From contig JAHDXL010000005.1 of the NCBI GenBank assembly GCA_023382935.1, positions 303,503 through 367,502 on the forward strand: DNA of 64,000 nt. The letters run 5' to 3'. Shown here piece by piece: positions 2,111 through 13,568 of the stretch (within the stretch, counting starts at the first letter, position 1; each line of letters opens with the position of its first letter). The notes below the pieces were generated by a model. That model was not told the DNA's origin and did not search any database. It was given only the letters and a program-made list of their open reading frames with translations. The position numbers and the translations under genes are program-made. Origin of the DNA: Phycisphaerales bacterium (GTDB lineage Bacteria > Planctomycetota > Phycisphaerae > Phycisphaerales > UBA1924).

Positions 2111-5100
2111 TCATTCACGGGTGAGGAACTCGTCGAGGTTGAGCAGGACGGCGGCGACGGATGTCCAGGCCGCCAGATCGGCAACGTCCGCGGCGGGGGC
2201 TGGCACGGGCGGCGAACCGGCGAACGAGGCCGCCGCCGAAGGGTCAGCGGCAAAGGCCGCGCGTTCGTCGTGGAACAGCGCGACCAGGGAGGCCGCTTCG
2301 TCAGGTCGCGGCGAACGGGCAAGGCAGACTTGCACGCCGCGAGCGGCGATGGACTCGGGCGAAGAGTCAACGGCTTCGAGCATCATCCGGCGCGCCAAGG
2401 CTTGGGCCGCCTCGACGTAGACCGGGTCATTGAGCGTGACAAAAGCCTGCAACGGCGTGTTGGTGCGGATGCGACGCGGCACGCAGAACTCGCGGCTGGG
2501 CGCATCGAAACTGATCATCGACGGATACGGGCTGGTCCGGCGCAGGAACGTGTAGAGCGAGCGACGGTAGCGATCGGGCCCGGTGCTCTCGGTCCAGCGG
2601 TCATCGCTGTAGACGACCATCCACACGCCCTCAGGCTGCGGAGGAAAGACAGGCGGGCCCCCCATGTCCGGGTTGAGCAGCCCGGACACAGCCAGGGCCT
2701 GGTCGCGGACCATCTCGGCATCGAGGCGCACACGCGGAAAGCGAGCCAGCAGAAGGTTCAGCGGATCAAGCGCCAGGTGCTCGCCGGTTGTGTGCGACGA
2801 CTGGCGATAGGTCGATGAGGTGACGATCTGGCGGCACAGTTCCTTGACGCTCCACCCGGAAACCTGGAAGGAAAGGGCGAGGTAGTCAAGCAGTTCGGGG
2901 TGCGAGGGTGGGCGGCCCTGGGCGCCGAAGTCTTCGCTGGTCTCGACCAGCCCGCGGCCGAAGAAGGCTTCCCAGAATCGATTGACCGTCACTCGGGCGG
3001 TGAGCGGGTTGTCGGGGTGGACGAGCCAGCCGGCAAACTGGCGTCGATCGCGCGGCTCGTCGGCGGTGACGAAGGAGAACACCTCGGGTACGCCCGGCTC
3101 GACCGCTTCGGTGGGATTGAGAAAACTGCCCTTATCAAAGATGTGCGAAACGCGGCGACGTTCGAGCGGCAACTCGCGCATAATCGGCATGGTTGGGGCC
3201 GCCCGCTCGATGCTCAGCCGCTCGGCGTGCAGCCCGGCCAGCACGAGATCCGTTTCGGCCAAGGCCAGGCGCGTCGGCTCATGGACGCGCTCGAGGTAGA
3301 AGCGCACGAGTTCCTCGGCGGGGCGGGCGTCGGGACCGGACGGGCGCAGCGGCTCGGGGATGCCCGCGTACTGGCGAGCGGCCTCGGTCGCCAGCCAGTC
3401 ACGCAGCGAGAAGCGCCACCGACGCGGATCGGGCTGCCGAGTGAGAACGCCGGCGCGGTCCCAGGTGGCACGCCCGGCGAACTGGGAGAAGGCCAGTCCG
3501 TCGATGCGGTCGCCGGGCGCCAGCCCGATTTCGGCGGCGTCCACTTCGATGTGGAACCACTCTCCGGGGGGCGGCAGGTCGCCCAGGCGCATGCGAGCGG
3601 GGGTGTCACTCTGCCCGAAGTCAATCAGATTCTCGCCCAAGTAGCCGCGATGCTCCCAGTTGTTGCCAACAGTGCGGACCTGGATCATGAGTTCGCGCGG
3701 CGGGCGGGCGGGGTCGGGCATCACCCAGCAACTGATTCGGTCGCCGGGCTGGACTTGGTAGGCCGGGTACATGTCGGTGAAGAAGCGCTGTTGGAAACCA
3801 CTGCCTGCGTCGATGGACCAGGCGCGCCCGTGCAGGCCGTCGGCAACCCACGGCCAGGACTGGTCGGTGTCGGGCGTGAGGCTGTGCGGGAGCAGGTCAT
3901 CGACCAGCGGCAGTTCGCCCGGGGCCAGGTCTGGAAGTGGGCCGGGTTCGACGTAGTCGGCCGGATGGATGCGTGCATCGCGATCACTGAGCAGGGCGTT
4001 TTCGGTCCGGGCGAGTTCATCGAGACGGCGTTGCCGCTCCGGTTCGAGCAAGGTGAGCGTGGGTGCCTCATCCATGCGGTCGGCGTCTTCGGTGTTGTTG
4101 AAGATCGCGAACAGTTCGTAATACTCGCGCTGCGTGATCGGATCGTACTTGTGCGTATGGCACTGTGCACACGCGACTGTCAGGCCCATCCACGCGGTCA
4201 TGGTGGTGCTGACGCGGTCCATGACGGCGGCGACGCGAAACTCTTCGTCGTCGGTGCCGCCCTCGTCGTTGGTCATGGTGTTGCGATGGAAGCCTGTGGC
4301 GATGATGTTGGAAGTGGTGGCGCCGTCGAGCATGTCGCCTGCGATCTGCTCGACGGTGAAGCGGTCGAAGGGCATGTCGTCGTTGAAGGCGCGGACGACC
4401 CAGTCCCGATAGGGCCACATGGTGCGGCGACGATCGGCCTCGTAGCCCTTGGTGTCAGCGTATCGGGCGAGGTCGAGCCACATGCTGGCCCAGCGTTCGC
4501 CGAAGTGGGGCGAGTTGAGCAGATGCTGAACGAGGCGGTCATAAGCGTCGGGCGCGTCATCGGTGATGAAGGCGGCCACTTCATCGGGCGTGGGAGGGAG
4601 GCCCGTCAAGTCGAGCGTCACGCGGCGGATGAGCGTGTTCCGGTCGGCCGGCGGTGAGAGGGGCAGCCCAGCCTGCTCGGCGCGGGCCTGGATGAAGCGG
4701 TCGAGATCAGATGTCGCCCAGTTCGAATCGCGCACGGGCGGCACGGGCGCCCACGCCGGCGGGCGGAAGGACCAGTGCTGTTCCCACGCGGCCCCTTGTT
4801 TGATCCACGCGCGGAGGAGGGCGGCCTGGGTGGAGTCCAGACCTTTGCCGCTGGGCGGCATGCGACGACGGGTGTCGGTGGCTTCGACGCGGGCGATGAG
4901 TTCACTGGAGTCGGGGTCGCCGGGCACCACGGCCCGGCGGCCGGACGCGAGCAGGGCGAGGAGTCCTTCGGCTGTATCGAGGCGTAAGCCGGCCTCGCGG
5001 GTCTTGTCGTCGGGGCCGTGGCATTTGACGCAGTTGTTCGAGAGGATGGGGCGAATGTCCCGATTGAAGTTGATGGTGGGTTTATCGGTCTGAGGGCGAG

Positions 5101-5188
5101 GGAGGGAGGAGGTACCAAGCCCCAGTGCGACGGGAATGAGCAGGGCTGCTGCTATGCTGAGCCGGAACCAGAGGCGGGAGAATGGCAT
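2111..5188 (-). CDS. PSCyt1/DUF1549/DUF1553 cytochrome-type protein
   Basis: This protein of about 1025 residues has a signal peptide (MPFSRLWFRLSIAAALLIP), a planctomycete cytochrome-c-like PSCyt1 domain with a CVKCH haem-binding motif near residue 55, then DUF1549 and, in the C-terminal third, DUF1553. It is the standard partner of DUF1501 proteins. The pair is thought to act outside the cytoplasmic membrane, but its substrate is not established. The start at 5188 gives a clean signal peptide; the longer open frame upstream would run through the divergent gene. It is first in a two-gene unit with the DUF1501 gene. Confidence 0.9.
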   Translation of the reverse strand: MPFSRLWFRLSIAAALLIPVALGLGTSSLPRPQTDKPTINFNRDIRPILSNNCVKCHGPDDKTREAGLRLDTAEGLLALLASGRRAVVPGDPDSSELIARVEATDTRRRMPPSGKGLDSTQAALLRAWIKQGAAWEQHWSFRPPAWAPVPPVRDSNWATSDLDRFIQARAEQAGLPLSPPADRNTLIRRVTLDLTGLPPTPDEVAAFITDDAPDAYDRLVQHLLNSPHFGERWASMWLDLARYADTKGYEADRRRTMWPYRDWVVRAFNDDMPFDRFTVEQIAGDMLDGATTSNIIATGFHRNTMTNDEGGTDDEEFRVAAVMDRVSTTMTAWMGLTVACAQCHTHKYDPITQREYYELFAIFNNTEDADRMDEAPTLTLLEPERQRRLDELARTENALLSDRDARIHPADYVEPGPLPDLAPGELPLVDDLLPHSLTPDTDQSWPWVADGLHGRAWSIDAGSGFQQRFFTDMYPAYQVQPGDRISCWVMPDPARPPRELMIQVRTVGNNWEHRGYLGENLIDFGQSDTPARMRLGDLPPPGEWFHIEVDAAEIGLAPGDRIDGLAFSQFAGRATWDRAGVLTRQPDPRRWRFSLRDWLATEAARQYAGIPEPLRPSGPDARPAEELVRFYLERVHEPTRLALAETDLVLAGLHAERLSIERAAPTMPIMRELPLERRRVSHIFDKGSFLNPTEAVEPGVPEVFSFVTADEPRDRRQFAGWLVHPDNPLTARVTVNRFWEAFFGRGLVETSEDFGAQGRPPSHPELLDYLALSFQVSGWSVKELCRQIVTSSTYRQSSHTTGEHLALDPLNLLLARFPRVRLDAEMVRDQALAVSGLLNPDMGGPPVFPPQPEGVWMVVYSDDRWTESTGPDRYRRSLYTFLRRTSPYPSMISFDAPSREFCVPRRIRTNTPLQAFVTLNDPVYVEAAQALARRMMLEAVDSSPESIAARGVQVCLARSPRPDEAASLVALFHDERAAFAADPSAAASFAGSPPVPAPAADVADLAAWTSVAAVLLNLDEFLTRE

Positions 5189-5249
5189 GGGGACAGAATA
5201 CTCGAACGTCAAAGTCGTCTCCAGGCGGCGCAAAGCCGGTGAGGACCGA

Positions 5250-6722
5250 GTGCCACGATTTGGCGCGCGCGGGCGGATGTTGCTGTTCTCCGGAACCGGG
5301 TTGGTGGCCGCATTGGCTCCCTCGGCGATGGGGGCGGACGCCAGCGTGTGGATCGAGGTCGCGGGGCGTACCCATCCGATGCTGGTGCACTTTCCGATTG
5401 CCCTGCTCGCGGCGGCCTGCGTTTTTGAGATCGTGCGGATCGCCAGCGGGCGCGACAAGGCTTCGCCGGCGGGCTTTGGGTGCCTGGTGCTGGCAGTGCT
5501 GGGTGCGGGCGGCGCGGGTGTGACGGGCTGGGTGCTGGCGGGCGTGGAGGGTCGGGCGGGCGAGGCGGAAATTGAAGTCCACCGCTGGGTGGCGGTCGGA
5601 GGCGCGAGCGTGGCTTTGCTGGCGGTGGTGCTGGCGCTGTCGGCGCGGCTGAGCGCCCGGCAAACGCTGCGGCGGCTGTATGTGCTGAGTTTGCTCGGCG
5701 GAGCAATGACGGTGGGTGTGGCAGGTCACTTCGGCGGGGAACTGGTGTATGGCAGGGGATACGTGCTGGCGCCGCTGCGGGCAAGGACTGCACCCGCGAC
5801 CGACGCAGCGCCGGTTCCGGTGGCCGGCGTGTCTGCGCCCGGAGCCGCGCATGTGAGTTTCGAGCGCGACGTGCTGCCCATCTTCGTGCGAGAGTGCACC
5901 GAGTGCCACGGGGTGAAGGAGCAGAAGGGTCAGTTGCGGCTGGATTCGGCGGCCGCCCTGCGGGGCAACCCGTACCTCGACGAGATCGTGGTTGCGGGTG
6001 ATGCATCGAAGAGCGTGCTGTTTGAGGTGATCACGCTGCCTGAAACGCATCGCGACTTCATGCCAAAGAAGGGCAAGCCGCTGTCGGCCTGGCAGATCGA
6101 GACGATTCGACGGTGGATCGAGAGCGGTGTGAGGTTTGATGACGGAGGCGAGATGGCCATGGAGCCGACAGCGACTGAACCGATCGCGTCAACGCCGCAG
6201 CCGAGCCAGGTGGACGTGGAGGCACTGGGCGTGGTGATCGCGGCAGTGAGAGACCGCGGCGGACATGCGTCGCTGGTGGCTTCGGATGTTCCGGAACTGG
6301 TGGTGAACTACAGCATTGTCGAGGGGCCTCTAAGCGACCAGGACATCGCGCTGCTGGCGCCTGTGGGCGAGCGCGTGGTGGAGTTGAACGTGGGCGGGGT
6401 CGAGGTGGGCGACAGCGTGGTGGCGCAGGTGGCCAGACTGAGCGGGCTGCGCCGCCTGAACCTGAGCCGTTCGCAGATCAGCGATGCGGCGATTGAGCAG
6501 TTGAGTGGGCTGACGCGGCTGGAGGTGCTCAATGTGTACGGCTGCCCGATCGGGGCGGCGAGCATCGAAGCGATTGCAGGGATGTCGACTCTCAGGCGGG
6601 TGTACGTGTGGCAGACGGGGATGGATCATGCGGCGGTGGCGCGATTGCGTGAGTTGCGGCCGGAAATGGAGGTGATCGCCGGGGATGAGGAGGGGGCCGA
6701 GCCTGGGGCGGGGGGAGGGTGA
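5250..6722 (+). CDS. DUF2231 membrane protein with cytochrome-c-like domain and leucine-rich repeats
   Basis: The protein has about 490 residues. A multi-helix membrane part (DUF2231-like, starting with GRTHPMLVHFPIALLAAA) is followed by a PSCyt1-type haem domain (CTECHGVKEQKGQLRLD), and then by a leucine-rich repeat tail (for example LSGLRRLNLSRSQISDAAIEQLSGL). Together this suggests a membrane-bound electron carrier with an extracytoplasmic binding domain. It is transcribed divergently from the PSCyt1/DUF1501 pair. The start is uncertain: GTG at 5250 has a GGTGAGGA four bases upstream; ATG 5187 would overlap the start codon of the divergent gene; ATG 5277 is also possible. Confidence 0.8.
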   Translation: MPRFGARGRMLLFSGTGLVAALAPSAMGADASVWIEVAGRTHPMLVHFPIALLAAACVFEIVRIASGRDKASPAGFGCLVLAVLGAGGAGVTGWVLAGVEGRAGEAEIEVHRWVAVGGASVALLAVVLALSARLSARQTLRRLYVLSLLGGAMTVGVAGHFGGELVYGRGYVLAPLRARTAPATDAAPVPVAGVSAPGAAHVSFERDVLPIFVRECTECHGVKEQKGQLRLDSAAALRGNPYLDEIVVAGDASKSVLFEVITLPETHRDFMPKKGKPLSAWQIETIRRWIESGVRFDDGGEMAMEPTATEPIASTPQPSQVDVEALGVVIAAVRDRGGHASLVASDVPELVVNYSIVEGPLSDQDIALLAPVGERVVELNVGGVEVGDSVVAQVARLSGLRRLNLSRSQISDAAIEQLSGLTRLEVLNVYGCPIGAASIEAIAGMSTLRRVYVWQTGMDHAAVARLRELRPEMEVIAGDEEGAEPGAGGG

Positions 6723-6793
6723 TTGCATCCGGGCGGAGCCCCTTGGTCGCATTCCGCGAGGTCGGCAGACCGTCACTGCTGGCACACTCCCGA

Positions 6794-6829
6794 ATTCCCT
6801 TGACTGCGGGAATGGGGACGTGCTAGTCT
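6794..6829 (+). promoter_or_regulatory. Predicted promoter of the his leader and operon
   Basis: TTGACT (6800-6805) and TAGTCT (6824-6829) are separated by 18 bases, and a TG at 6821-6822 forms an extended -10 element. The inverted repeat ATTCCC (6794-6799) / GGGAAT (6808-6813) straddles the -35 box and could be an operator. Transcription would start near 6836, almost at the ATG of the leader peptide (6838). This is a prediction from sequence only. Confidence 0.6.
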
Positions 6830-6837
6830 TTGCGGCA

Positions 6838-6900
6838 ATGTTCAAGGCCGCGACGCATCACCGGCATCATCATCACGCCCACAACCCGGGCCGTGCGTGA
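6838..6900 (+). CDS. hisL: His operon leader peptide
   Basis: This 20-codon frame encodes MFKAATHHRHHHHAHNPGRA. Seven of the twenty codons are His, within codons 7-15. It lies just downstream of a good promoter, upstream of a terminator hairpin, and upstream of hisG, the usual arrangement of a His attenuator leader. There is no Shine-Dalgarno sequence, and the predicted transcription start is only about two bases before the ATG, so the leader may be translated from a leaderless mRNA. The peptide itself probably has no function; ribosome stalling at His codons when His-tRNA is scarce would be the signal. The symbol hisL is used by analogy with enterobacteria. Confidence 0.85.
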   Translation: MFKAATHHRHHHHAHNPGRA

Positions 6901-6951
6901 TGGTCTGATGGTGCCGAGGCACTGAAGGATCATGAGGACGCCGGCCCTGGG
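6885..6951 (+). promoter_or_regulatory. His attenuator: predicted antiterminator pairing
   Basis: CCCGGGCCG (6885-6893, overlapping the last codons of the leader peptide) can pair with CGGCCCTGGG (6942-6951), giving nine base pairs with a single bulged T at 6948. This would consume the 5' side of the terminator stem. A ribosome stalled on the early His codons (6856-6876) leaves 6885-6893 free, while a ribosome at the stop codon (6898-6900) covers it. That is the logic expected of attenuation. A small hairpin GTGC/GCAC (6911-6914/6919-6922) between them could be a pause site. Confidence 0.65.
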
Positions 6952-6967
6952 TCGGCGTCTTGTCATT
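6937..6967 (+). terminator. His attenuator terminator hairpin
   Basis: GACGCCGGC (6937-6945) pairs with GTCGGCGTC (6951-6959), nine pairs including one G-U, with a five-base loop. It is followed by a short, imperfect T-rich run (TTGTCATT). It lies between the leader peptide and hisG. The U-tract is weaker than in enterobacterial attenuators. Confidence 0.7.
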
Positions 6968-7026
6968 GGGGCGGGCTGTCCGCTCCAGGCGCTGATCCGG
7001 GGCAGGCTCAAGAGAGAACCTGCCTG

Positions 7027-7899
7027 ATGAACACGCAACCGACAAGCAATCTGCGGATGGCGGTGCCGAAAGGGCGGATGCAGGGAGGCGTCACGCAGTT
7101 GCTCGCCGACGCGGGCATTCGGCTGGACGTGACGTCGCGGAACTATCGCCCCAGGGTTTCTGCCGAGGGGATGGAGGTGAAGATACTCAAGCCGCAGGCG
7201 ATCATCGAGATGCTGGCTGTGGGAGCGAGGGACGTGGGTTTTGCGGGGGCGGACTGGGTGGCCGAGTTTGAGGCCGACCTGGTGGAGTTGCTGGACACGG
7301 GGATGGACCCGGTGCGACTGATCGCGGCCGCGCCGGAGGGGCTGCTGGTGGAAGGGCAGTTGCCGAGGCAGCGGCTGGTGGTGGCGAGCGAATATGTGCG
7401 GCTGGCGCAGCGTTGGATTGAAAGGCGCCGGCTGGATGCGACGTTGCTGAGATCGTTCGGCGCAACGGAGGTGCTGCCGCCGGAGGACGCGGACGTGATC
7501 GTGGACAATACGGCCAGCGGGGCGACGCTGGCGGCCAACGACCTGCGCATCGTGGACGAGTTGATGGGGTCGTCGACGCGCTTGTACGCGTCGAAGCAGG
7601 CGATGGCCGACCCGGACAAGCGCGAGCGCATCGAGGAGGTGGTGACGCTGGTGCAGTCGGTGCTGGCGGCGCGGCGGCGTGTGATGGTGGAGTTGAACGT
7701 GGGCCCGGAGAACCTGGAGCGTGTGATCGAGGTGCTGCCGTGCATGCGTGAGCCGACGGTATCGACGTTGCACGCATCGGCGGGATACGCGGTCAAGGCG
7801 GCGGTGCCGCGGGAGGAGTTGCCGCGGGTGATTCCTCTGATTCGTGCGCGCGGGGGTACGGACATCGTGGTTTCACGGATCGAGCAGATCGTGGCGTGA
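7027..7899 (+). CDS. hisG: ATP phosphoribosyltransferase, long form
   Basis: This enzyme joins ATP and PRPP in the first committed step of histidine synthesis. At 290 residues it is the long form with a C-terminal regulatory domain, so it should not need HisZ and should be feedback-inhibited by histidine. The N-terminal motif MAVPKGRMQGGV and the PRPP-binding segment VDNTASGATL (around residue 160) are visible. It is the first structural gene of the his operon behind the attenuator. An AGAGAG ribosome-binding site at 7010-7015 lies in the loop of a predicted hairpin, GGCAGG (7001-7006)/CCTGCC (7019-7024), that ends two bases before the ATG. Confidence 0.96.
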   Translation: MNTQPTSNLRMAVPKGRMQGGVTQLLADAGIRLDVTSRNYRPRVSAEGMEVKILKPQAIIEMLAVGARDVGFAGADWVAEFEADLVELLDTGMDPVRLIAAAPEGLLVEGQLPRQRLVVASEYVRLAQRWIERRRLDATLLRSFGATEVLPPEDADVIVDNTASGATLAANDLRIVDELMGSSTRLYASKQAMADPDKRERIEEVVTLVQSVLAARRRVMVELNVGPENLERVIEVLPCMREPTVSTLHASAGYAVKAAVPREELPRVIPLIRARGGTDIVVSRIEQIVA

Positions 7900-7909
7900 G
7901 GAGAGCGCG

Positions 7910-9004
7910 GTGCAGGGGATGAGCGTGGAAGGGCGAGAAGTAGTCGGAGGCGTGCGACTGTCGCCGAGGATGGCGGGAGTGAAGCCCTATGCGCCGCCGA
8001 CGGGGCGAGGAACGGCCAGGTTGCTGCTCGACGCGAACGAAGGGGCGGCGCCGGGTGAGGCAGTGCGGGAGACTCTGGCGCGCGTTGATCTGGAACAGGT
8101 GCGGCGCTATCCGGAGGCGGGGGTTCTGGAGGCGCTGCTGGCCGAACGTGTGGGTGTCGAGCCGGAGCGCGTCGTGGTGACGGCGGGAGGAGATGACGCG
8201 ATTCATCGCGTGTGCGCGATGACGCTGGACGCGGGGCGGACGCTGGTGACGCACGCGCCGGTGTTTGAGATGATTCCGCGCTACGCGCGGCTGGCCGGGG
8301 CGGAGGTGGTGCAGGTCGACTGGCTGCGAGGGGGATTTCCGCATGAGAAGTTGGTGAGCACGATGGACGGGCGGACGGGGCTGGTGGCGGTGGTGTCGCC
8401 GAACAACCCGACGGGAGCGGTGGCCCCGGTGCGAGACCTTGTCGCAGTGGCGCAGGCGGCGCTGCGGCGGGGCGTGGTGGCCATGATCGACCTGGCGTAC
8501 GCGGAGTTTGCACAGGTTGACCCGACGCCGGCGCTGATCGAGTTGCCCAACGTGGTGATGATCCGCACTCTGTCGAAGGCGTTTGGGCTGGCGGGTCTGC
8601 GCGTTGGATATGCAGTGTGCCCGCGCGAGTTGGCGCCGATGGCACGGGCTGCCGGTGGGCCATACCCGGTGTCGGGGCTGTCGCTGGCGGTCGGCGAGGC
8701 GATGGTGCGGAAGTGGGATGTGGCAGAGACGTGGATGCAGGGCGTGCGCGAGGAACGCGAGCGGCTGGGCGCGGTGCTGCGCGAGGTCGGGGCGAGGCCT
8801 ATGGAGTCTCAGGCGAACTTCGTGACAGCCGAGTTTGTGGATGCGGGCGGAGTGCATGCCGGACTGTTGCGGCGAGGAATCTCGGTGCGTGCGTTCGGCG
8901 GGATGATGGAGCGATTTCTGCGTTTTACGCTTCCGGGCGAAGTGGGGGCGTTTGACGAACTGGTGTCGGCGCTTCGCGCCGTGTGCGAGGAGGTGGGCCG
9001 ATGA
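7910..9004 (+). CDS. hisC: Histidinol-phosphate aminotransferase
   Basis: This PLP enzyme (364 residues) transfers an amino group from glutamate to imidazole-acetol phosphate. It shows the fold-type I hallmarks LLLDANEGAAP near the N-terminus, SPNNPTGAV for substrate and PLP contacts, and TLSKAFGLAGLRVGY, whose Lys should carry PLP. GTG at 7910 is preferred because AGGAG (7899-7903) lies six bases upstream; ATG at 7919 is the alternative. It follows hisG by ten bases and overlaps hisB by ATGA. Confidence 0.93.
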   Translation: MQGMSVEGREVVGGVRLSPRMAGVKPYAPPTGRGTARLLLDANEGAAPGEAVRETLARVDLEQVRRYPEAGVLEALLAERVGVEPERVVVTAGGDDAIHRVCAMTLDAGRTLVTHAPVFEMIPRYARLAGAEVVQVDWLRGGFPHEKLVSTMDGRTGLVAVVSPNNPTGAVAPVRDLVAVAQAALRRGVVAMIDLAYAEFAQVDPTPALIELPNVVMIRTLSKAFGLAGLRVGYAVCPRELAPMARAAGGPYPVSGLSLAVGEAMVRKWDVAETWMQGVREERERLGAVLREVGARPMESQANFVTAEFVDAGGVHAGLLRRGISVRAFGGMMERFLRFTLPGEVGAFDELVSALRAVCEEVGR

Positions 9005-9600
9005 GCGGAGCCACAGGGCGCGTCGGGCAGGTGGAACGCACGACCGCGGAAACTAGGGTGCGCGTCAGCGTGAACCTCGACGGCACGGGCGTGTGCAGGG
9101 TGAGCACCGGGCTTGGGTTCCTCGACCACATGCTCGATGCGTTGTGCCGGCACGGGAGGCTGGACGTGGAACTGACCTGCCAGGGCGACGTGCAGGTTGA
9201 CGACCATCACACGGTTGAGGATTGTGCTCTGGCGCTGGGCAGCGCGATCGACCGGGCGCTGGGCGAGCGGCGCGGGATCGGGCGATTCGGGTCGGCGCAT
9301 GCGCCGCTGGATGAGGCGCTGGCAAGGGCCGTGATCGACTTGTCGGGACGGCCCGGCACATGGATCGACCTGCAACTGCGGCGCGCGATGATCGGGCAGG
9401 TGGCGACGGAGAACCTGTCGCACTTTTTCACGTCGCTGGCGGTGGGGATGAGGGCGACGCTGCATGTGGATGTGCTGCGCGGGGAGAACGATCATCACAA
9501 GGCCGAGGCGGCGTTCAAGGCGTCGGCGCTGGCGCTGCGGCAGGCGGTGTCGATCGACGCGCGCGCAAGTGACGTGCCGTCGACCAAGGGAGTGCTGTGA
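9001..9600 (+). CDS. hisB: Imidazoleglycerol-phosphate dehydratase
   Basis: The 199-residue protein is a single-function IGP dehydratase without the fused phosphatase domain found in enterobacteria. It carries the two metal-binding motifs expected for the family, DDHHTVED (about residues 66-73) and ENDHHKAEAAFKA near residue 160, plus GLGFLDHMLDAL at the N-terminus. The start overlaps the hisC stop (ATGA). The histidinol-phosphatase step must be supplied from elsewhere in the genome. Confidence 0.95.
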   Translation: MSGATGRVGQVERTTAETRVRVSVNLDGTGVCRVSTGLGFLDHMLDALCRHGRLDVELTCQGDVQVDDHHTVEDCALALGSAIDRALGERRGIGRFGSAHAPLDEALARAVIDLSGRPGTWIDLQLRRAMIGQVATENLSHFFTSLAVGMRATLHVDVLRGENDHHKAEAAFKASALALRQAVSIDARASDVPSTKGVL

Positions 9601-10268
9601 TGCGTGTGACGATCATCGCCACGGGCATTGCGAACACGGCATCGGTGGAGGCGGCCTTCACGCGGCTGGGGGTGGAAGTCGAGCACACGACCGACGCCCG
9701 GCGGGTGGAGCAAGCCCGGGCGGTCGTGCTGCCCGGCGTTGGATCGTTCGGCGCCGGGATGGACGTGCTGCGGACATTGGGACTGCTCGAGGTGCTGCCG
9801 GAACGCATCGTACAGGGGCGTGCGACGCTGGCGGTGTGCCTGGGCCTGCAGTTGCTGTGTCGGGGGTCGGAGGAGTCGCCGGAGGTCGAAGGACTGGGCG
9901 TGCTCGATACGGTCGCGAGGCGGTTTCCGGATTCGGTGAGCGTGCCACAGTTTGGCTGGAACCGCGTGTGCGCGGGCGAAGGGTCGCGATTGATCGAGGA
10001 CGGGCACGCATACTTCGCGAACTCGTATCGGATCGTGTCGCTGACGGGGCATTCGGCGCCGGTGGAAGGCGTAGGCAAACCCCTCGCCGGCGCCAGGGGC
10101 TCTGACTGGGTGTGTGCGACAACGGACCATGCGGGGAGGTTTGTGTCCGCGATCGAGCGCGGCGCCGTGCTGGGGTGCCAGTTTCACCCGGAGATTTCGG
10201 GGCCCTGGGGCCAAAGGCTGCTCGGACGCTGGCTGGCGATGGCGGACGAAGGAGTGGGTACATGCTGA
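9600..10268 (+). CDS. hisH: Imidazole glycerol phosphate synthase, glutaminase subunit
   Basis: HisH (222 residues) hydrolyses glutamine and passes ammonia to HisF. The class I amidotransferase triad is visible: the nucleophile Cys in LAVCLGLQLL and the His and Glu in GCQFHPEISG. VVLPGVGSFGAGM matches the family N-terminal pattern. The start ATG overlaps the hisB stop as TGATG; an in-frame GTG three bases earlier is possible. The end overlaps the hisF start. Confidence 0.94.
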   Translation: MRVTIIATGIANTASVEAAFTRLGVEVEHTTDARRVEQARAVVLPGVGSFGAGMDVLRTLGLLEVLPERIVQGRATLAVCLGLQLLCRGSEESPEVEGLGVLDTVARRFPDSVSVPQFGWNRVCAGEGSRLIEDGHAYFANSYRIVSLTGHSAPVEGVGKPLAGARGSDWVCATTDHAGRFVSAIERGAVLGCQFHPEISGPWGQRLLGRWLAMADEGVGTC

Positions 10269-11020
10269 CGCGGCGCATCATTCCGTGTCTGGACGTTCGC
10301 GGCGGGCGCGTGGTCAAGGGTGTGAAGTTCGCCGGGCTGCGCGATGTCGGCGATCCGGTCGATCATGCGAAGACCTATGAGCAGCAGGGGGCCGACGAAC
10401 TGGTGATGCTCGATGTTTCGGCCACGCCGGAGGATCGCGAGACGGCCCTTGAAACGGTGCGAGCGCTGCGGCGAGCGCTGTCGATTCCGCTGACGGTGGG
10501 CGGCGGAGTACGCGGCGTCGAGACGGCCGAGCGACTGCTGCTGTCGGGAGCGGACAAGGTGAGCATGAACACGGCGGCAGTGACTGAGCCGGGGCTGCTG
10601 ACGCGTCTGGCCGAGCGCGTGGGTCGGCAGTGCGTGGTGCTGGCACTCGATGCGGCGGCGTGGGCGAGTGGTGAGGGTTGGGAAGTTGTCACGCGATCAG
10701 GGGCGCATCGCACGGGCATCGACGCGGTGTCGTGGGCACGCCAGGCTGAGCAGGGCGGGGCGGGTGAGATTCTGCTGACGAGTTGGGACCGCGACGGCAC
10801 GCAAGAGGGGTATGACTTGTCGCTCATCGCTGCGATTTCCAGAGCCGTGCGCGTGCCGGTGATCGCCAGCGGCGGAGCGTCCTGCCCCGAGCACATGGCC
10901 CGGGCACTGGACGCCGGTGCGTCGGCGGTGCTGGCCGCGTCGATCTTTCACGAAGGGCGGTACACGGTTGAGCAGGTCAAGCAGGTGCTCAGCCAGTGCG
11001 GGGTCGAGGTGCGGCGATGA
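10262..11020 (+). CDS. hisF: Imidazole glycerol phosphate synthase, cyclase subunit
   Basis: HisF (252 residues) is a TIM-barrel enzyme that forms IGP and AICAR with ammonia from HisH. The N-terminal catalytic Asp is in RIIPCLDVRGGRVVKGV, and the second phosphate site and repeat halves show as TVGGGVRGVETA and VIASGGASCPEHM. The start overlaps the 3' end of hisH by seven bases, and the stop overlaps the next gene as ATGA, consistent with translational coupling of partner subunits. Confidence 0.96.
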   Translation: MLTRRIIPCLDVRGGRVVKGVKFAGLRDVGDPVDHAKTYEQQGADELVMLDVSATPEDRETALETVRALRRALSIPLTVGGGVRGVETAERLLLSGADKVSMNTAAVTEPGLLTRLAERVGRQCVVLALDAAAWASGEGWEVVTRSGAHRTGIDAVSWARQAEQGGAGEILLTSWDRDGTQEGYDLSLIAAISRAVRVPVIASGGASCPEHMARALDAGASAVLAASIFHEGRYTVEQVKQVLSQCGVEVRR

Positions 11021-12285
11021 TCGTGCCGTCGATTGACATCATGGGCGGGCAGGCGGTGCAACTGGTGGGCGGGCGTGAGAAGGTGATCGACGCGGGTGAC
11101 CCGAGGCCGATCGCGGAGCGGTTCGCGCCGGTGGGCGAGATTGCGGTCATTGATCTTGACGCAGCGATGGGTCGAGGGAGCAACGCGGAGATCGTCGAGG
11201 AGTTGTGCCAGATGGCGCGGTGTCGCGTGGGCGGGGGGATTCGCGATGAGCAAACGGCGGTGAGGTGGTTGGATGCCGGTGCACGGAAGATCATTCTGGG
11301 GACGGCGGCCCGGCCCGAACTGCTGAGCAAACTCCCGCGCGGGCGTGTGATCGCGGCACTGGATGCACGCCACGATCGCGTGGTGATCGAGGGGTGGATG
11401 AAAGAGACCACGGCCCGGGTGGAGGATCGCATCGACGAGTTGAAGGAATACGTCGGCGGATTCCTCGTGACGTTTGTGGAACTGGAAGGACGCATGGGCG
11501 GGCTGCCTCTCGGTCGCGTGGAGGCGGTGGTGCGGCGGGCGGTGGGGTGTCGGGTGACGGTCGCGGGTGGGGTGCGCGGGTCCGACGACGTGGCCGCGGC
11601 CGACCGCGCGGGGGCTGATGCGCAGGTCGGGATGGCGCTCTACACCGGTGCGATGGGGCTGGCCGAGGGGTTGTGTGCGCCGTTGCGGAGCGATCGCGCC
11701 GACGGTCTGTGGCCGACGGTGGTGGTGGACGAACACGGCGCGGTCCTGGGGCTTGTGTACTCGAATCTGGAGAGCGTTCGCACCGCGATCGAGGAGCGGC
11801 GCGGGATTTACTGGTCGCGATCACGCGGCGGGCTGTGGCGCAAGGGCGAGGAGAGCGGAAACATGCAGGAACTGCTGCGCATCGACGTCGACTGCGATCG
11901 CGACGCGCTGCGCTTCACCGTGCGGCAGAAGGGCGGCTTCTGCCACACCGGCACGCGGTCGTGCTTCGGTGAGTCGACGGGGCTGGTGAAACTGCAGGAG
12001 ACCATCGCGGCGCGTATCGCATCGGCACCGGCCGGGTCGTATGTCCGGCGATTGCTCGATGATCCGGCGCTGTTGCGTGCCAAATTGCTGGAGGAGTGCG
12101 GCGAGTTGATCGACGCGAGCACGCCGGGCGGGGCTGCGTGGGAGGCGGCCGACGTGTTGTTTTTCGTGCTGACGGCCGCGATGCGGCTCGGTGCGACGCT
12201 CGACACCATCGAAGACGAGATCGATCGCCGGTCGCTGAGCGTGACGCGCCGCAGGGGCGATGCCAAGCCGGGAAGGGGCGGGTGA
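11017..12285 (+). CDS. hisAIE: HisA-HisI-HisE triple fusion: ProFAR isomerase, PR-AMP cyclohydrolase, PR-ATP pyrophosphohydrolase
   Basis: One uninterrupted 422-residue protein carries three successive his domains. Residues 1-222 are a HisA TIM barrel, with catalytic Asp7 in PSIDIMGG and Asp116 in AALDARHD. Residues about 228-318 are HisI, with the metal-binding VDCDRDA and the zinc cysteines C293, C309 and C316 (CHTGTRSCF). Residues about 325-410 are HisE, with KLLEECGEL and WEAADVLFF. Together it would convert PR-ATP to PRFAR. Short linkers join the domains and there is no stop or restart between them. HisI-HisE fusions are common; attachment to HisA is not, to my knowledge. The HisA part has VTFVELEGRMGG where E. 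coli HisA has a TDISRDGT segment, closer to the eukaryote-type isomerase. Confidence 0.93.
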   Translation: MIVPSIDIMGGQAVQLVGGREKVIDAGDPRPIAERFAPVGEIAVIDLDAAMGRGSNAEIVEELCQMARCRVGGGIRDEQTAVRWLDAGARKIILGTAARPELLSKLPRGRVIAALDARHDRVVIEGWMKETTARVEDRIDELKEYVGGFLVTFVELEGRMGGLPLGRVEAVVRRAVGCRVTVAGGVRGSDDVAAADRAGADAQVGMALYTGAMGLAEGLCAPLRSDRADGLWPTVVVDEHGAVLGLVYSNLESVRTAIEERRGIYWSRSRGGLWRKGEESGNMQELLRIDVDCDRDALRFTVRQKGGFCHTGTRSCFGESTGLVKLQETIAARIASAPAGSYVRRLLDDPALLRAKLLEECGELIDASTPGGAAWEAADVLFFVLTAAMRLGATLDTIEDEIDRRSLSVTRRRGDAKPGRGG

Positions 12286-13568
12286 TGCTGCGGCGAGTCA
12301 ATGCGAGCGAGGTTCGGGCGACACGTTTCCGCGCGGTCGATGACCAGACGCTTGAGCAGGCGGGCGCCATGGTGCGGCGCGTGGAGCGTGAGGGCGTGCG
12401 CGCGGTGCGCGAACTGGCGGAGCGGTTCGGCGAAAGGCGCGCGGGCGATCCGCTGGTGCTGGGACGTAAGGCGATGCTGCTGGCCTATGCGGCGATGGAT
12501 GCCGAGGATCGCGCGTGCCTGGAACGAACGGCTGAGAGAATCGAGCGGTTTGCGAGGGCTCAACTCGTCTCCATCCGCGCGTTGGACACTTCCATTGAAG
12601 GCGGGCGAGCGGGACACACGCTTTCGTGCGTGCGATCGGCCGGCTGCTACGTTCCAGCGGGGCGCAGCCCCTTGCCGTCGACGGCCCTGATGACGGCGGT
12701 GACGGCGAGGGTGGCCGGGTGCGAGCGCGTGGTCGTCGCATCCCCGGGGGCGCATCCGATGGTGCTGGCGGCGTGCTCGATTGCGGGCGTGGATGAGGTG
12801 CTGGCCGTCGGCGGGGCCCACGCGATCGCCGCGATGGCTTTCGGCTTCGAGGCGCACGGGTCGAGCGGAGAGGAGGCGTTTGAGCCGTGCGACATGATCG
12901 TGGGGCCGGGCAATCGCTGGGTGACGGCGGCCAAGCAGATGGTGTCCGGTGTGGTCGGCATCGACATGCTGGCAGGTCCGTCGGAACTTCTGGTGCTTGC
13001 CGACGAGACGGCCGATGCGGCGGTGGTGGCGGCCGATCTGCTTGCGCAGGCGGAGCATGACACGGACGCTCGCGCGATGCTGGTGACGACCAGCGCAGCG
13101 CTGGCCGATGCGGTGGATGAACAGTTGCGTGAGCAACTGGAGTCGCTCCCAACGCGGGCGACGGCAAGGGCGGGGCTGGGCAACGGTTTTTCGTGCGTGG
13201 TCGCGTCGATCGAGGAGGCGCTCTTGGTGAGTGACCTAGTTGGGCCAGAGCACCTGGAACTCATGATGCAGGACGCAGAGGCGGTGGCAACGCGCGTGCG
13301 CAACGCGGGGGGAGTATTCATCGGTGCGCGGGCGGCCGAGGTGCTGGGCGATTACGGGGCCGGGCCGAATCACACGCTGCCGACGGGCGGGACGGCGCGA
13401 TTTCGCGCAGGGCTGAGCGTGATGCACTTCCTGCGGTTGCGCACGTGGATGCGCATGGATGACTCCGGGGAGGCCGCGGGCCTGGTTGCGGACAGTGAGC
13501 GATTGGCGAGGATGGAAGGACTGCCCGGGCATGAGCGATCGGCGGCGAAACGCCGCGTGACACGGTGA
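12285..13568 (+). CDS. hisD: Histidinol dehydrogenase
   Basis: This zinc enzyme (427 residues) performs the last two oxidations from histidinol to histidine with NAD. Typical segments are CYVPAGRSPLPST, MIVGPGNRWVTAAK, GIDMLAGPSELLVLAD, LAQAEHDTDA and VGPEHLEL, which supply the zinc and catalytic residues. ATG overlaps the previous stop as TGATG. It closes the operon; the convergent EamA gene ends 80 bases downstream. Confidence 0.96.
   Translation: MLRRVNASEVRATRFRAVDDQTLEQAGAMVRRVEREGVRAVRELAERFGERRAGDPLVLGRKAMLLAYAAMDAEDRACLERTAERIERFARAQLVSIRALDTSIEGGRAGHTLSCVRSAGCYVPAGRSPLPSTALMTAVTARVAGCERVVVASPGAHPMVLAACSIAGVDEVLAVGGAHAIAAMAFGFEAHGSSGEEAFEPCDMIVGPGNRWVTAAKQMVSGVVGIDMLAGPSELLVLADETADAAVVAADLLAQAEHDTDARAMLVTTSAALADAVDEQLREQLESLPTRATARAGLGNGFSCVVASIEEALLVSDLVGPEHLELMMQDAEAVATRVRNAGGVFIGARAAEVLGDYGAGPNHTLPTGGTARFRAGLSVMHFLRLRTWMRMDDSGEAAGLVADSERLARMEGLPGHERSAAKRRVTR

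Follow-up and report, generated by a model that had tools for sequence, protein, structure and literature searches.

The window, i.e. the whole 64,000-nucleotide stretch of DNA that was analysed, contains a complete histidine operon in the order hisG-C-B-H-F-A/IE-D, consisting solely of his genes that are closely spaced or overlapping and that end at position 13568 (Table 1). The HisA, HisI and HisE domains are joined in a three-part fusion, encoded by a single frame of 429 aa. Upstream of the operon (2111-6722) lie two genes, one on the minus strand with PSCyt1, PSCyt2 and PSD1 domains and one on the plus strand with DUF2231 and PSCyt1 domains, the latter also giving a weak leucine-rich repeat match. 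These adjoining genes, together with the family membership of the genome, support the planctomycete-like character that the original prediction, made from the letters of the DNA, had assigned to it. Elsewhere in the same genome, no Trp leader was seen by eye in three frames upstream of trpE, and a leuA model gave one weak match, below its cut-off.

Table 1. Features of the putative his attenuator and of the operon that follows it, in window coordinates
Feature	Position	Strand	Basis or remark
-35-like hexamer TTGACT	6800..6805	+	Sequence; TTGAC position kept across loci
-10-like TAGTCT (6824-6829), with TGC in front	6821..6829	+	Sequence; same-genus genome G002
His leader peptide frame, predicted leaderless	6838..6900	+	ATG 8 nt past the -10-like box
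Protector (1:2) hairpin	6866..6904	+	His codons 6866-6880 with 6888-6904; folds and swap test
Antiterminator 5' arm	6885..6898	+	Partner 6938-6951; folds and swap test
Terminator hairpin, 12 bp, 3-nt loop CUG	6935..6961	+	5' arm shared with antiterminator
T-rich tail, poor at this locus	6962..6971	+	GTCATTGGGG following the hairpin's TT
hisG, long form	7027..7899	+	TIGR00070 and TIGR03455 above cut-off
hisC-like histidinol-phosphate aminotransferase	7844..9004	+	TIGR01141 best, E 1e-65, under its cut-off
hisB (IGP dehydratase)	8983..9600	+	Profile match
hisH	9597..10268	+	Profile match
hisF	10262..11020	+	Profile match
hisA-hisI-hisE fusion	10996..12285	+	Profile/domain matches
hisD	12285..13568	+	Profile match

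Ahead of hisG, a frame of 20 codons runs from the ATG at 6838 to the TGA ending at 6900 and encodes MFKAATHHRHHHHAHNPGRA, its stop being separated from the hisG start by 126 nt. Seven of the codons specify His, as the original prediction had stated. Their density is 7 per 10 codons, whereas dinucleotide shuffling of the 600 nt upstream, repeated 2000 times, never gave a closed frame with more than 5. The frame is short, rich in codons for the amino acid that the operon produces and, by prediction, placed for translation.

Relatives were collected by a protein search with HisG (26 of 61 genomes; 72 named contigs), by a Pfam HisG search in the window's family (matches in 66 of 120 genomes) and by a phylum-wide HisG protein search (24 of 294 genomes at E 1e-60). 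Loci were counted if their HisG was at least 43% identical to that of the window and at least 350 nt of upstream sequence were present, identical 200-nt upstream regions being counted once, and a leader was scored when a short upstream frame contained 4 or more His per 10 codons. The expectation that relatives would share the His run was borne out, as a His leader preceded hisG in 120 of 147 distinct loci with the window's HisG type. Within the window's family, it was present in 60 of 64 evaluable genomes (the 66 with matches minus two ending at a contig edge) and missing in L015, L134, L150 and L157; with one more genome from the phylum-wide search, the count for the family was 61 of 65. Leaders were likewise found in 15 of 23 other planctomycete loci, in 21 of 30 loci labelled Gemmatimonadota, in all of those labelled Actinomycetota (10/10), Spirochaetota (4/4) and Acidobacteriota (2/2), in the single loci labelled Armatimonadota, Chloroflexota, Cyanobacteriota and Melainabacteria (1/1 each), and in three of five loci carrying no phylum label. 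The 27 loci lacking a leader include four from the window's family, eight of the 23 other planctomycetes, nine Gemmatimonadota and all four Myxococcota (0/4 with a leader), and eight of these nine Gemmatimonadota loci have a related, weaker leader with 3 His. The other HisG types of Planctomycetota (25-34% identical) had no leader in any of 40 distinct loci, made up of 0/11 (L017-L027) and 0/30 (L181-L210, the best-scoring 30 of the matches obtained in 102 of 199 genomes, L200 with 436 nt upstream), with one locus shared (L201 = L022); in L019, a His-rich stretch upstream has no start codon and was not scored as a leader. Among the loci sampled, the presence of the element goes with the type of HisG and not with the phylum.

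Two side observations were made during this survey. Nine loci with Gemmatimonadota labels (L041, L049, L051, L055, L069, L070, L072, L073 and L075) carry leaders like MTNTHLFFGHYFYHRVRGGR, with 3-4 His and several Tyr and Phe, downstream of TTGACA; the one at L041 lies about 197 nt ahead of the HisG anchor. Leaders of this type may be degenerate His leaders or may read aromatic amino acids too. Moreover, no HisG match was obtained in 54 of the 120 genomes of the window's family, or in 43 of the 91 with a completeness of 90% or more and a contamination of 5% or less, which suggests that histidine biosynthesis is patchy in the family, through loss or gain of the operon.

The position of the promoter-like hexamers, on which the original prediction had not remarked, is what leads to a leaderless reading of the leader. 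In the window, TTGACT is followed after 18 nt by TAGTCT and, after a further 8 nt, by the ATG at 6838, and the same-genus G002 has identical hexamers, spacing and distance to the leader start; a consensus scan of 6600-7100 returned neither a promoter nor a terminator. With start codons picked without regard to the promoter, 90 of 120 loci had a TTGAC whose first base lies 32-44 nt ahead of the leader start; among control windows of equal size further upstream, the figure was 10 of 1320. Tetramers resembling a Shine-Dalgarno sequence were rarer before the leader starts (5/120) than in control stretches (163/1320). The distance from the -10 box to the transcription start is usually 7 +/- 1 nt, a value given for C. 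glutamicum (PMC3896937), and with the geometry of the window this rule places the predicted transcript start on the AUG or only a few nt away from it. The leader is therefore probably leaderless, as judged from promoter geometry. A rule blind to reading frame (TTGAC-N16-18-NANNNT, followed at a distance of 5-10 nt by the first ATG or GTG) predicted a start in 72 of the 120 leader-bearing loci, and in 71 of these 72 the start opened the His frame, where one third would be expected; since the 72 were drawn from leader-bearing loci, the test bears on the frame and not on the presence of a leader. This frame test would be the strongest argument that the leader frame is really translated.

From the start of the leader onwards, the RNA 6838-6967 folded at -62.9 kcal/mol (z -3.55), and none of 200 shuffles folded as well. 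The terminator hairpin, originally placed at 6937-6959, was confirmed and extends over 6935-6961 (-20.9 kcal/mol, z -4.66); it lies between the leader and the first gene, though its own U tail is poor (UUGUCAUUGG). The competing pairing of 6885-6893 with 6942-6951 was also present as originally described, with one bulged U, and is prolonged by 6895-6898/6938-6941. A third pairing, the protector, which the original prediction did not mention, appears in the lowest-energy fold of the window and competes for the antiterminator arm, and the three pairings (protector, antiterminator and terminator) are mutually exclusive. Taken alone, the protector region 6860-6905 was unremarkable (z -1.37, with 25 of 200 shuffles as good).

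The conservation of this architecture was assessed on loci that reached the thresholds used above for HisG identity (43%) and His density (4 per 10 codons) and that also gave a lenient promoter match (at least 4/6 in the -35 hexamer, the -10 hexamer unconstrained). These numbered 114, or 111 after removal of L016, L094 and L166, whose hairpins were implausible; the nine of the 120 leader loci that fall outside the 111 are L016 and L166 as well as L037, L040, L052, L057, L084, L095 and L173, which gave no promoter-like match. In the window's family, each of the 60 leaders passed the lenient promoter match and had a hairpin that could be parsed, that of L016 being the implausible one. Over the 111 loci, the hairpin is mostly ACGCCGGCC...GGTCGGCGT and begins 13-50 nt (median 32) past the leader stop, with GCCGG or GCCGAC in its 5' arm in 103 cases; picking the hairpin by stem strength alone gave the same end in 108. 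The 14-nt tail contained 5.52 T compared to 2.34 in controls, being T-rich at positions 1-8 and G-rich thereafter.

In swap tests, the end of each leader paired better with its own terminator arm (-18.92 kcal/mol) than with a swapped one (-16.82 kcal/mol; 111 loci, z about -9.5), and none of 20000 permutations was as good. The effect persisted at HisG identities below 80, 70 and 65% (84, 53 and 32 loci), with z values of -7.5, -4.2 and -4.8, respectively, and 0/20000 permutations as good in each subset. Arms that have changed and still match were seen in L006, L036, L089/L091, L146 and L176. The antiterminator thus both competes with the terminator and covaries with it. For the protector, the swap test was weaker than for the antiterminator, with z values of -5.0 (111 loci), -2.3 (53 loci; 240/20000 permutations as good) and -2.1 (32 diverged loci; 366/20000).

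Constrained equilibrium folds were calculated with a chosen ribosome footprint, the structures of the window stopping short of 7000-7024. On the full-length window RNA, a ribosome on codon 8, 10 or 12 gave the antiterminator, as it did on the nascent RNA, whereas a footprint on the stop codon gave the terminator; without a ribosome, the protector and the terminator formed together. On the nascent window RNA, capture of the terminator arm was nearly equal with the ribosome stalled (0.74) and on the stop (0.72); in the latter state, the 5' end of the leader takes up the arm, which accounts for the small difference. Among nascent folds of the 111 loci, stalling raised the capture by more than 0.2 in 65, made no clear difference in 46 and had the reverse effect in none, in a test that is biased toward the stalled case since it masks all RNA 5' of the stalled ribosome and the footprint alone on the stop.

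Taken together, we consider it highly probable that the his operon is controlled by transcription attenuation of the classical leader-peptide kind, with a leader that is probably leaderless. The ribosome-dependent his attenuation put forward in the original prediction is supported by the promoter-set His frame, the covarying antiterminator and the conserved hairpin with its T-rich tail, and from these features of the DNA we infer the transcription start, the translation of the leader, the efficiency of termination and the response to histidine. RNA polymerase would initiate on the ATG at 6838 or only a few nt away from it, and the 5' end would be loaded with a ribosome as it emerges. When charged tRNA-His is ample, the ribosome would reach the UGA at 6898-6900 and cover the antiterminator arm 6885-6898, the hairpin 6935-6961 would form and transcription would stop ahead of hisG. 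When charged tRNA-His is scarce, the ribosome would stall on the His codons, within codons 7-15, and disrupt the protector, so that the freed 6885-6898 could take 6938-6951, block the terminator and allow the operon to be transcribed. If no translation takes place, the protector and the terminator would hold the operon off.

The same leader could also serve a switch that acts mainly on the translation of hisG. Just ahead of the hisG ATG, a second hairpin (7000-7024, GGCAGG...CCUGCC; -14.2 kcal/mol, z -2.74, equalled by 2 of 200 shuffles) holds in its loop the hisG ribosome-binding region, a purine-rich, Shine-Dalgarno-like stretch containing AGAGAG, and G002 has a similar hairpin at this place with altered stem bases. 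The element conserved over the 111 loci is, however, the upstream hairpin with its T-rich tail, the end of which lies 38-243 nt (median 93) ahead of the HisG anchor residue, and a switch mainly on translation is regarded as very improbable.

A different explanation dispenses with the ribosome, in that the CAU/CAC repeat would be kept for RNA structure alone, by pairing with the following GUGAUGGUG, and the frame would be incidental. Pairing between the His codons and the stop region does exist, as is seen in the protector, but a purely structural role would not account for the promoter-predicted starts falling in the His frame at 71 of 72 loci. It also sits poorly with the leaders being short closed frames with a median length of 21 aa (120 leader loci), and with the near-equal use of the two His codons (377 CAT and 371 CAC), which makes such a role very improbable. 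Still less credence is given to a His-rich metal-binding or otherwise functional microprotein that is not a sensor: the leaders contain up to 8 His per 10 residues, but between diverged loci it is the His run that recurs while the remaining residues and the length differ, and the leader is accompanied by a terminator and a covarying antiterminator and was not found before the other HisG types examined. A chance origin, or the coincidental position of a terminator belonging to the upstream gene (5136-6722), is the least credible of all, for although an isolated case would be possible in a GC-rich genome (4 His per 10 codons were reached in 102 of 1900 shuffles of the upstream regions of 19 loci, about 5%), the element is common to nearly all evaluable genomes of the family and shared under nine phylum labels, those with one or two loci being doubtful.

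For the attenuator, its history across phyla was considered by means of two quick HisG trees without bootstrap, one of 139 rows and one of 131 rows with merged labels, the latter leaving out the duplicates L140 and L170 and the long-branch or doubtful L177, L178, L179 and L094. Phylum labels were mixed in both trees, in which the deep forks are weakly supported, and the HisG clade contains Planctomycetota mixed with Gemmatimonadota, Acidimicrobiia and Spirochaetota labels. The changes on the 131-row tree, each followed by the minimum given by starred branches, were 11/3 for Planctomycetota, 12/3 for the window's family, 6/3 for Gemmatimonadota and 4/4 for Actinomycetota. The titles of assembled genomes are unreliable, as Armatimonadota, Chloroflexota and one Acidobacteriota label fall inside Acidimicrobiia or Gemmatimonadota groups; the safer labels are Gemmatimonadota (30 loci), Actinomycetota (10) and Spirochaetota (4). 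The locus L028 (RHKP01000015.1), titled Cyanobacteria, probably bears a wrong public label and likely belongs to the window's own genus.

The mixing of labels in the HisG trees suggests that the operon moved between phyla together with its attenuator; alternatively, an ancient presence with losses may underlie it. In a more far-reaching form of the transfer reading, which we hold to be about evenly balanced between right and wrong, a leaderless attenuator of single origin would have travelled with the HisG/his lineage over Planctomycetota, Gemmatimonadota, Acidimicrobiia, Spirochaetota and Melainabacteria, with promoter, leader, switch and terminator forming a portable cassette. If so, classical attenuation would be far more widespread than is reported in the portions of the literature consulted, and, since synthesis of the transcript would begin with the leader AUG, the loading of ribosomes may be coupled to the polymerase from the very first nucleotides. 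To our knowledge, the coupling of transcription and translation has hardly been examined in those organisms.

Leader-peptide attenuation has so far been described, in the texts available to us, for Proteobacteria, Actinobacteria and some Firmicutes. According to Naville and Gautheret 2010 (PMC2965389), earlier leader peptides were known only from Proteobacteria and Actinobacteria, the atypical ermC aside; their broad screen added a case from bacilli, in which hisS paralogs are preceded by a His leader. His attenuators in three groups of Firmicutes were contributed by Rodionov 2022 (PMC9413887), in the main text of which the strings planctomycet, gemmatimon and acidimicrob never occur. For Actinobacteria, Seliverstov 2005 (PMC1262725) reported no conserved RNA structure ahead of histidine operons, and for C. 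glutamicum hisD a mechanism resembling a T-box and involving no His peptide has been put forward (PMC3896937). A peak of leader-gene distances in Planctomycetes is described by Korolev 2016 (PMC4833913), where the available text mentions no histidine attenuator. None of the open-licence papers brought up by the literature searches reported the element in its title or in the opening lines of its abstract; the 2010 Lopatovskaya survey may list further phyla.

Comparison with RNA families gave a similar picture. Over the whole window, Rfam returned only a tRNA at gathering score, and 15 related loci gave no match at gathering score, either to RF00514 (His_leader) or to the T-box. A permissive scan of 6700-7100 yielded four weak hits, the best being rne-II with 15.1 bits, where the gathering score is 50, and again none to the RF00514 or T-box models. 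The element would thereby give an RNA family that has no Rfam match, and a histidine version in most of the examined clade members would extend attenuation to further phyla. Its leaderless start would, in addition, constitute a testable claim on the timely loading of ribosomes without a Shine-Dalgarno sequence.

Among known systems, the element resembles the enterobacterial his leader (RF00514) in having a His-codon leader peptide and alternative antiterminator and terminator pairings, with a putative protector, ahead of a his operon (PMC9413887, PMC3896937). It differs from that leader in lacking a match to the model, in the start at the predicted transcript end with Shine-Dalgarno-like motifs rarer than in controls, in the GCCGG/GCCGAC arm of 103 of 111 loci and in a tail that is T-rich for about 8 nt and then G-rich. 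With the Firmicutes his attenuators, as far as the available text of Rodionov 2022 describes them, it shares a His leader, a terminator and an antiterminator outside Proteobacteria. For the start, the closest likenesses in the portions of the sources available are trpL of Sinorhizobium meliloti, whose attenuator transcript begins at the leader AUG (PMC7298713), and the ilvBNC leader of C. glutamicum, the translation of which is discussed as leaderless (PMC11857589). Those two cases concern other amino acids and phyla, and the start proposed here is predicted from promoter geometry. The mechanism itself is a known one, here in a form with a probably leaderless start, an RNA architecture of its own and a tie to a HisG clade in which phylum labels are mixed.
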